Assembly: GCF_000426725.1 (NCBI RefSeq)
Contig: NZ_AUFX01000018.1
Coordinates: 1-64,000 of the forward strand
Length of the DNA: 64,000 nt
Direction: 5' to 3'
Origin: Sporocytophaga myxococcoides DSM 11118
GTDB lineage: Bacteria > Bacteroidota > Bacteroidia > Cytophagales > Cytophagaceae
Positions 28,512-30,496 of the stretch are shown piece after piece (within the stretch, counting starts at the first letter, position 1; each line of letters starts with the position of its first letter). The notes beneath the pieces are model-generated. The model saw nothing but the letters and a program-made list of their open reading frames with translations. It ran no database searches and was not told the origin of the DNA. Position numbers and translations under genes: made by a program.

Positions 28512-29087
28512 TTATTTTTTAATTTCCTTATAAAACTCCTGCAAACGCTTTCTTAAATGAAGCACTGCATATCTTTTTCTACTGATCAATGTATTTACCG
28601 GCTCTCCGGTGATCTCTGACATATCTTTAAAACTCTGGTCTTCAAACTCGTGCATCATAAAGACTTCTTTCTGCTCTGCAGGCAGCTCGTCTAAAGCCTC
28701 TTGCACGGCTTCCCATAATAAGTTTTTAAAGTATTCGTCGTCAGGAGTGTTTCCCAGATCGGGTAAGATTTCTTCAAGAAATAAGCCTTCGTTATCTTTC
28801 ACAGTTTCATTATAATCTGTAAATGTTTCCGGTTTCTTCTTTCTGTAAAGGTCAGTAATTTTGTTTCTCGCCACCCTAAACAACCAGGAGGTGATCTGAT
28901 CAATGGTATCTATACTTCCTGAAGCCTGAGTAAGCTGAAAAAAGACATCCTGCAGAATATCCTCAGCATCTTCTTTTGCTTTGACCCTTTTCCTGATAAA
29001 ATTAAACAGCTTATTCCTCTCCTTGCGGACAGTCTGCTCTATTTTATCCTTTTGATTCTGGGTCATGTATATTGGTAGAGATTCCAT
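28512..29087 (-). CDS. ECF-type RNA polymerase sigma factor
   Basis: A 191-residue sigma-70 family factor of the extracytoplasmic-function type. Region 2 is at about 20-90 (KAKEDAEDILQDVFFQL, SWLFRVARNKITDLYRKKK) and region 4 at about 130-185 (LDELPAEQKEVFMMHEFEDQ, then VNTLISRKRYAVLHLRKRL). It directs RNA polymerase to a dedicated set of promoters. It heads a three-gene operon with two small genes. Its upstream region is shared with the divergent leader and EamA transporter and includes an FNR-like box at 29251-29264. Confidence 0.9.
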   Translation of the reverse strand: MESLPIYMTQNQKDKIEQTVRKERNKLFNFIRKRVKAKEDAEDILQDVFFQLTQASGSIDTIDQITSWLFRVARNKITDLYRKKKPETFTDYNETVKDNEGLFLEEILPDLGNTPDDEYFKNLLWEAVQEALDELPAEQKEVFMMHEFEDQSFKDMSEITGEPVNTLISRKRYAVLHLRKRLQEFYKEIKK

Positions 29088-29298: not shown

Positions 29299-29330
29299 TT
29301 TGTCTTATCTGTGAAATCTTCATATGTTTG
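29299..29330 (+). promoter_or_regulatory. Bacteroidota sigma-A type promoter for the leader RNA
   Basis: TTTG at 29299-29302 and TATGTTTG at 29323-29330, separated by 20 bp, match the Bacteroidota primary promoter (TTTG at -33 and TAnnTTTG at -7). The start of transcription would be near 29337, directly before the folded leader. Confidence 0.65.
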
Positions 29331-29336
29331 TTATAT

Positions 29337-29492
29337 ATAAAAAAATAAAAAGTGCTAATACTTAAGTCACATATCACGGCAATTATTGCGGTCCCTTGCA
29401 GAGACCGGTCCGGGATATGTATTGGCTAAAAGAAAAGGTTTATTCCATACAGATATAGAAAATCCCGGACTATTGTCCGGGATTTTTTTTTT
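29337..29492 (+). ncRNA. Structured leader or small RNA with competing terminator (attenuator candidate)
   Basis: The predicted transcript begins near 29337. ACATATC (29369-29375) pairs with GATATGT (29414-29420), enclosing a hairpin GCAA/TTGC (29379-29389) and a hairpin GGTC/GACC (29390-29406), a three-way-junction layout. The terminator at 29461-29492 has a 5' arm ATCCCGGAC (29462-29470) that can alternatively pair with GTCCGGGAT at 29408-29416, an exact copy of the terminator's own 3' arm. The two pairings exclude each other, as in a transcription attenuator or riboswitch. It does not match any riboswitch class I can name. A free-standing small RNA is the alternative. Confidence 0.55.
29461..29492 (+). 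terminator. Rho-independent terminator within the EamA leader
   Basis: A 10-bp stem AATCCCGGAC/GTCCGGGATT with a TATT loop is followed by a run of T up to 29492. It lies 77 bp before the EamA ATG and far from any upstream plus-strand gene end, so its job must be to stop the leader transcript. Confidence 0.88.
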
Positions 29493-29569
29493 GTATATAC
29501 ACAAAACTAAATGGGAACTAATTGAACTGAAAATTTGGTAGTTATTAAGCCTTCTAAATAAATAACAAT

Positions 29570-30496
29570 ATGTTAAAAGAAGAGAGAAAAGCAACTGACT
29601 GGCTTCTGATAGGAGCTTTTGCCGCTGTATATATTATATGGGGATCAACATATTTGGGAATTCGCTATGCAATTGAAAGTTTTCCACCTTTTTTCATGGC
29701 TGGAACCCGTTTCCTTGCGGCAGGATTAATATTATATTTCACAGGAAGACTAAAGGGAGCTCCTGTTCCTGAAATTAAAGAAATCAAAACATCTACCATT
29801 GCCGGATTTCTATTACTGGTATTAGGTAATGGAGGCCTTGTATGGGCAGAGCAAAGAATACCATCTTCTGTAGCAGCTCTGCTGATTACAATTGAACCTG
29901 TATGGATTGTCCTTTTATTATGGATGTTTAAAACAGATAATAAACCAAACCTGCTAACATGGATAGGAATTCTAATTGGCATGGCAGGTATGGTATTTAT
30001 GACTGGTACCGGAGCTGGTAAAGATTTAGTTAAAGCTGATTCATTAAGTATTTTTGCCATTCTGATTTCTACCCTTGCATGGGCATTAGGATCTGTCTAT
30101 GGTACCAGGGCAAAATTTCCATCCTCTCCTTTAGTAGCAACAGGATTGCAAATGCTTTCAGGAGGTATAATACTGCTGATCATTTCATATTTCAGCGGAG
30201 AATTTACAAACATCAACCTTGATTCAGTAAGCTCTAAGTCATTATGGGCATTTGTCTATCTGATAATATTCGGGTCACTGATAGGCTTTACTGCCTATGC
30301 ATATTTACTCAAAGAGGCACATCCATCTCAGGTATCAACTTATGCCTATGTTAATCCTGTCATAGCTGTAATCTTAGGTGTTTTTGTAGGAAACGAAAAA
30401 CTTACCAATCAGACCATGCTCGCCGGCGGCCTTATCATTGTTGCAGTAATGGTTATCTGGCTCAGCGGAAGGCCTAAAAAAGTTTTAAAACAGTGA
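29570..30496 (+). CDS. EamA/DMT-superfamily transporter
   Basis: A 308-residue inner membrane protein with about ten hydrophobic segments in two homologous halves, each an EamA domain (first half WGSTYLGIRYAIESFPPFFM, second half AWALGSVYGTRAKF). The motif PVIAVILGVFVGNEKL in the last third is typical. These proteins export amino acids or other metabolites; the substrate is unknown. It is preceded by a promoter, a folded leader and a terminator (29299-29492), so expression may be controlled by termination read-through. Confidence 0.9.
   Translation: MLKEERKATDWLLIGAFAAVYIIWGSTYLGIRYAIESFPPFFMAGTRFLAAGLILYFTGRLKGAPVPEIKEIKTSTIAGFLLLVLGNGGLVWAEQRIPSSVAALLITIEPVWIVLLLWMFKTDNKPNLLTWIGILIGMAGMVFMTGTGAGKDLVKADSLSIFAILISTLAWALGSVYGTRAKFPSSPLVATGLQMLSGGIILLIISYFSGEFTNINLDSVSSKSLWAFVYLIIFGSLIGFTAYAYLLKEAHPSQVSTYAYVNPVIAVILGVFVGNEKLTNQTMLAGGLIIVAVMVIWLSGRPKKVLKQ

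Follow-up and report, generated by a model that had tools for sequence, protein, structure and literature searches.

A probable ribosome-sensed leader-peptide attenuator upstream of an EamA-family transporter gene in Sporocytophaga

Attenuators of the trp, ilv, leu and his type combine a short open reading frame (ORF) with three mutually exclusive helices, and the position of the ribosome sets whether transcription terminates. Candidate leader peptides before actinobacterial cys operons are rich in cysteine. These candidates are described, in excerpts of the source, as lacking obvious terminators (PMC1262725). In the vmlR leader of Bacillus subtilis, an upstream ORF (uORF) is combined with an anti-antiterminator, an antiterminator and a terminator in that order, the uORF lying inside the first hairpin behind a Shine-Dalgarno sequence, according to passages of PMC9226507. 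Among Bacteroidota, passages on Flavobacterium psychrophilum give strong clues for leader-peptide attenuation before amino-acid operons (PMC9723704), and passages on Bacteroides thetaiotaomicron describe small ORFs reminiscent of leader-peptide attenuators, as yet unproven (PMC7366714). Literature searches combining EamA, leader peptide and terminator, or leader peptide, drug metabolite transporter and transcription attenuation, gave no match, and the main text of a survey of premature terminators mentions neither Cytophaga, Bacteroidetes, EamA nor DUF6.

We analysed the leader of an EamA-family transporter gene of Sporocytophaga myxococcoides DSM 11118, within a stretch of 64,000 nucleotides (the window). 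From its sequence and from folding models, we consider it probable that this leader is a ribosome-sensed leader-peptide (uORF) transcription attenuator before eamA, most likely a new leader-peptide family of a known kind of regulation. Its features are as follows.

29299-29302, + strand: TTTG, a −33-like promoter element, by sequence and the Bacteroidota consensus
29323-29330, + strand: TATGTTTG, a −7-like promoter element, found as TAnnTTTG in all four Sporocytophaga genomes
29352-29429, + strand: putative leader ORF with GTG start, 25 codons and TAA stop (29427-29429), encoding (M)LILKSHITAIIAVPCRDRSGICIG; open in four of four congeners and, in five lineages, positioned alike with respect to the antiterminator
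29369-29375, + strand: 5' strand of P1 (the anti-antiterminator), ACATATC, within leader codons 6-8, from predicted folds
29389-29407, + strand: inner hairpin CGGTC...GACCG, common to the P1 and antiterminator folds
29408-29425, + strand: antiterminator 5' strand, made up of GTCCGGGAT (29408-29416) and a GTATTGG segment (29419-29425), predicted to pair with 29445-29470 when the RNA stops at the 5' arm of the terminator
29414-29420, + strand: 3' strand of P1, GATATGT, overlapping the antiterminator strand, from predicted folds
29445-29470, + strand: antiterminator 3' strand, made up of CCATAC (29445-29450) and ATCCCGGAC (29462-29470, which doubles as the 5' arm of the terminator), from predicted folds
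29457-29488, + strand: intrinsic terminator hairpin of 14 pairs followed by a T run, from sequence and fold
29570-30496, + strand: YedA-like EamA-family transporter of 308 residues, the presumed regulated gene (Pfam EamA, 138 bits; NCBIfam NF008432 YedA, 273.9 bits)

Like the amino-acid attenuators, the locus has a short ORF, three exclusive helices and a ribosome whose position would decide termination. It differs from them in that a transporter gene lies downstream, no single regulatory codon forms a run and the ORF runs past the antiterminator strand before its stop codon; in our models, moreover, RNA without a ribosome does not clearly terminate. The uORF overlaps the anti-antiterminator hairpin as in vmlR, but here the ORF (29352-29429) spans the whole hairpin (29369-29420) and has no Shine-Dalgarno sequence, and the gene downstream encodes a transporter. 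In contrast to actinobacterial cys leaders, Cys codons are few and inconstant. The 600 nt upstream of ilvD contained no such leader in seven of seven genomes, in several of which ilvD lies closely behind another gene.

The transporter gene narrowly clears the cut-off of the YedA exporter model NF008432 (270 bits), and many EamA/YedA-type transporters have no known substrate. In two other genomes of the genus the EamA protein is 97 and 94% identical to that of the window. A sigma-70-family factor at 28512-29087 is transcribed in the opposite direction. The initial annotation had read TTTG and TATGTTTG, 20 nt apart, as a promoter. Both elements are present at that spacing and agree with the TTTG / TAnnTTTG consensus of Bacteroidota promoters given in passages of PMC7366714. 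Among the four Sporocytophaga genomes, TTTG is kept in three and TAnnTTTG sits 19-22 nt 5' of the leader ORF start in all. Transcription would thus start near 29337, and the leader ORF begins 15 nt past this position, which places this short ORF close to the transcript's 5' end.

The predicted folds bear out the attenuator-like layout initially proposed, in which P1, antiterminator and terminator exclude one another upstream of the EamA gene (two of the lineages considered below, G004 and G521, are exceptions). The ACATATC/GATATGT pairing of P1 is present in the minimum-energy fold of the window, and the strong terminator was found where expected. GTCCGGGAT is indeed identical to the terminator 3' arm (29475-29483) and able to pair with the 5' arm (29462-29470), and a pairing as good arose in 0.1% of 1000 shuffles. 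The antiterminator itself had been drawn too short, however, since 29419-29425 and 29445-29450 pair as well. Both 3' segments are kept in four of four congeners, save for one A to G change in genome G001 that gives a G-T pair. Little supports the three-way-junction-like shape, whose second arm (GCAA/TTGC) appears in the predicted folds of just two of four species (G001 and G003). RNA cut at the terminator 5' arm adopts the antiterminator fold (−26.7 kcal/mol), whereas full RNA adopts P1 plus terminator. The 156-nt leader folds with z = −4.05, and none of 200 shuffles was equally stable; the terminator contributes much of this value, the ORF hairpin alone having z = −1.85. A similar terminator core, AATCCCGG...CCGGGATT, also recurs after other genes of the genus (L007, L009, L010), one of them, by eye, a signal-peptidase-like ORF; it looks like a stock terminator, one arm of which is repeated in the leader ORF.

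The leader ORF, absent from the initial annotation, covers P1 and the antiterminator strand. No Shine-Dalgarno sequence precedes the GTG at 29352, as is common in Bacteroidota. Between the four Sporocytophaga genomes 73-78 of its 78 nt are identical, with four of the five variable sites at third positions; for eamA the overall identity is 85-91%, and at fourfold sites it is 52-70%. Length changes in the genus fall 5' of the GTG and 3' of the TAA, none within the ORF, and 29378-29432 is invariant in all four congeners, an invariance for which overlapping pairings and codons can account within one genus. In G001 and G003, two changes that are synonymous in the ORF (29366 G to A, 29369 A to C) remove P1 pairs; in their best fold ATCCC paired with GGGAT replaces P1 and still covers the antiterminator strand. 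Two of the four congeners thus have the exact P1 first annotated as their best fold. Among 59 genomes, a DNA search found the leader in all four of Sporocytophaga and in none of the 55 others. Outside the genus, a single-peptide search of 98 genomes returned just peptide matches of E 0.11 or worse, and no leader was seen at those inspected (about 11). A second ORF from ATG 29418 was rejected, its frame differing between species.

The same layout was found before EamA genes of four further lineages, with the leader peptides MKPMTSHIVLWKAAAVCLSEVRCV (G009), MLNNSLHKASRIAVALCEMPVRTLCKK (G004), MRNLLKHICAAVVVIFKIDWARVLFMF (G079) and MNNIQKHKAIIQLVAPVCVPVGAFCLR (G521) and with transporters that are 32, 31, 39 and 41% identical to that of the window, respectively. 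All five lineages share the order of start codon, His codon 7 (CAT in each), antiterminator strand, stop and terminator. The window and these four have ORFs of 25, 24, 27, 27 and 27 codons, antiterminator strands at +56, +60, +61, +59 and +60 from the start codon, and distances from stop to terminator arm of 27, 26, 20, 26 and 25 nt. Shuffles produced such an ORF in 2-5% of cases per lineage, and in 0.025-0.25% with His7, within limits set after the data had been seen. The antiterminator letters vary among lineages yet pair inside each one, with P between 0.000 and 0.084 by lineage (8.4% of shuffles matched G004); the ORF hairpin alone reaches z of just −1.1 to −2.3 in four of the five. In the best folds, G004 RNA cut at the 5' arm retains the hairpin and full-length G521 RNA retains the antiterminator. 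The first reading had been staked on conservation of the P1 and antiterminator pairs; in the other lineages, with other sequences, the antiterminator is again present, as is a hairpin covering the antiterminator strand.

We scored 165 EamA upstream regions, EamA matches having been found in at least 173 of 390 genomes, among the matches listed, and in 63 of 395. A few of these regions were poor, L082 and L204 being shortened by a contig end and L142 beginning inside the gene. Nine regions had the layout and 156 did not; eight of the nine belong to the five lineages, and the ninth (L201), admitted by a loose rule without His7, is probably a chance match. Scanning 63 further regions gave no new member. 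In G005, the closest relative outside the genus (51%), a terminator is present and no antiterminator was found. In a background of 159.5 kb, read on both strands, there were 27 terminator-like sites and the layout occurred at six loci, the five plus one. This one, on the minus strand of L163 (12781-12849; G000:C2), has a 22-codon ORF before an ACCGG terminator, lacks His7 and is probably also due to chance.

A profile of six leader peptides, run against 29 genomes, recovered their eight source loci and one new leader (E 8e-7), the next match having E 0.056. The new leader (G521:C148:503-583) precedes a second G521 EamA gene, which is cut by the contig end. Its transporter is a near-copy of the first, with identity at 135 of 140 residues, and the genome carries 6% contamination; the leader is therefore only a partial confirmation. 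Six of its eight changed codons alter the residue, and its antiterminator has seven pairs against 11; in G521 the leader peptide diverges faster than the transporter it precedes. On a tree of 75 transporters, those bearing leaders cluster, with two changes of the leader label (none of 500 shuffles gave so few). A single change was obtained in 16% of 200 bootstrap trees, and several leader rows sit on long branches; a single old origin of the leader, with losses, is possible.

Other leader-like arrangements were seen nearby or before other EamA genes. G009 and G004 (L024 and L025, minus strand) have a second ORF, of 54 and 51 codons, downstream of the leader terminator and ahead of the eamA start. 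These ORFs end in PESPENSGLFTFERP and RSPEKFGLLNFRQT and run through a second terminator directly 5' of eamA, whose arm, by eye, is repeated upstream as TCCGGG or CCGGG; they possibly form a tandem second attenuator. About 212 to 57 nt before the EamA gene of L216 (G466) lies a 34-codon ORF with four Cys codons that ends in KCCHTSKCIVCRNR and stops about 20 nt before a terminator. Its spacing is unlike that of the leader family, and it is perhaps another, Cys-rich leader.

In the mechanism that we propose, RNA polymerase would start near 29337 and a ribosome would load on GTG 29352 after a short A-rich stretch. Prompt translation past about codon 16 would place the ribosome over the antiterminator strand (from 29408 on), so that the terminator forms and the transporter is off. 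A stall at or before about codon 16 would hold P1 open and leave 29408-29425 free to pair with 29445-29470 once this is made, which would pre-empt the terminator and let RNA polymerase enter eamA. We infer the translation of the leader ORF, termination, the switch and its timing.

The ribosome was modelled as 30 unpaired bases, and mean antiterminator pairing was scored in RNA up to the 5' arm and in full-length RNA. With the A-site at codon 14, predicted pairing in the shorter RNA was 0.92-1.00 in eight leaders. The limit fell at codon 16 in the window and congeners, 17 in G009, G004 and G079, and 18 in G521, with modelled pairing of 0.48-0.81 at that codon and 0-0.09 one codon later. Scoring the best single antiterminator pair, a measure that flatters the model, left the limits unchanged; codon 18 of G009 scored 0.31. 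Completed translation is the modelled off signal: with the A-site at the stop codon pairing fell to 0-0.03, but was 0.77 in G079. The antiterminator is also predicted to form in ribosome-free unfinished RNA (0.92-0.98), and the off state would hence depend on translation or an early P1; being made earlier, P1 may oppose the antiterminator in time when no ribosome is present. In full-length RNA at equilibrium, the modelled terminator stood at 0.98-1.00 whatever the ribosome did in the window, congeners, G009 and G004, and in G521 at 0.94-1.00 with a stall and 0.73 ribosome-free. G079 was the sole lineage in which a modelled stall, at codon 14 or 16, abolished it. Since the terminator wins at equilibrium in most finished RNAs, antitermination must rest on timing, the on state being set while the RNA is still being made, as is usual for attenuators.

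As the most likely stall signal we tentatively take a scarcity of charged tRNA for Val, with its rare GTC codon, and for the Ala codons of the hydrophobic stretch. No leader has a run of one codon, and runs of one residue are short (AAA in G009, VVV in G079). The 125 leader residues include 15 Val, 14 Ala, 14 Ile, 13 Leu and 9 Cys; against shuffled letters, Ala is in excess of 6.1 (P 0.001), Val of 8.9 (P 0.03) and Ile of 8.4 (P 0.03). Ahead of the limit codon, seven of nine Val codons are GTC (P 2.9e-4 when measured against third-base use in the leaders themselves), whereas local genes use GTC for 5.5-12% of their Val. The window, G004, G079 and G521 all have GTC as codon 14, and G009 has it at 9 and 16; RNA pairing may also hold GTC in place. 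When the two G521 copies are compared, the four Val and the three Ala residues are unchanged and Ile4, Ile11 and Cys18 are replaced, a weak comparison given six changed residues in all.

Two other signals would act through the same attenuator mechanism as Val/Ala scarcity. It is conceivable, though unlikely, that a ribosome-targeting antibiotic halts translation partway through the leader ORF and turns on a YedA-like drug exporter, by analogy with vmlR. The succession of an ORF overlapping the anti-antiterminator hairpin, antiterminator and terminator follows the vmlR plan, as far as passages of PMC9226507 describe it, and the gene clears a model named drug/metabolite exporter. IAVV-type macrolide arrest peptides are known elsewhere, and four of the five leaders carry a reminiscent IAV or AAV triplet ahead of codon 17. 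However, the hydrophobic stretch differs between lineages, the nascent chain, at 13-16 residues, exceeds that of those macrolide leaders, the excess of rare GTC better suits tRNA sensing, and we know of no drug link for these transporters.

A quite unlikely variant has the attenuator sense cysteine, with a stall at a Cys codon (16, 17, 17, 18) deciding and EamA moving cysteine or a relative, much as EamA/YdeD of Escherichia coli exports cysteine. Cys accounts for 9 of 125 leader residues against about 1% in local genes, and a Cys codon is the last modelled antiterminator-permitting position in four of five lineages. Against shuffled letters, however, the expectation is 4.5 and P just 0.03; G079 has Cys at codon 9 only, the second G521 copy has Arg at 18, and an exporter turned on by shortage would be odd.

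A metabolite riboswitch, in which a ligand bound to the 29363-29428 fold would stabilise P1 and cause termination, we regard as very unlikely. The z of the fold and the invariance of 29378-29432 in four congeners, beyond the needs of the ORF alone, would suit it, but the exact P1 is replaced in two of these congeners. The initial annotation, which could name no matching class, was right in that Rfam gave no match at gathering score for the window and eight leader loci; a lax scan for known riboswitch or leader classes gave 40 matches, every one rejected as below its gathering score. MAFFT alignments of the lineages misplaced starts or the 3' half, so the lineages were folded singly. In one imperfect alignment hardly anything lines up beyond CATA and a few letters close to the antiterminator, and a conserved aptamer core across the five lineages was not found, only scattered shared letters. 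What the lineages have in common is a frame and an alternative pairing rather than an aptamer core. Where the first reading had offered riboswitch or attenuator, the attenuator half is supported and the riboswitch half is not: no ligand-pocket letters are common to the five lineages, while start codon and its position, open frame, His codon 7 and the spacing of ORF and antiterminator are shared. It is highly improbable that the element has no regulatory role, eamA being preceded by a passive terminator, or a small RNA gene, in which the pairing arose by chance: five lineages have the layout, each of them upstream of an EamA gene. In favour of such a reading, similar CCGGGATT terminators follow other genes in the genus and the terminator wins at equilibrium in most models.

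With the ribosome-sensed leader that we favour, Bacteroidota would gain a leader-peptide family that precedes a transporter gene, the literature passages having dealt with amino-acid operons and unproven small ORFs. It is conceivable, though unlikely, that the leader peptide serves Cytophagales as a built-in drug sensor, through which ribosome-targeting antibiotics of soil competitors would stall the ribosome and turn on the YedA-like exporter. If true, this would give a poorly understood transporter family a function, and would be an antibiotic-sensing uORF attenuator in Bacteroidota, of which there is none among the literature matches listed. A ribosome-sensed leader before a transporter would point to its substrate or inducer, and offer a reporter with which to find either.
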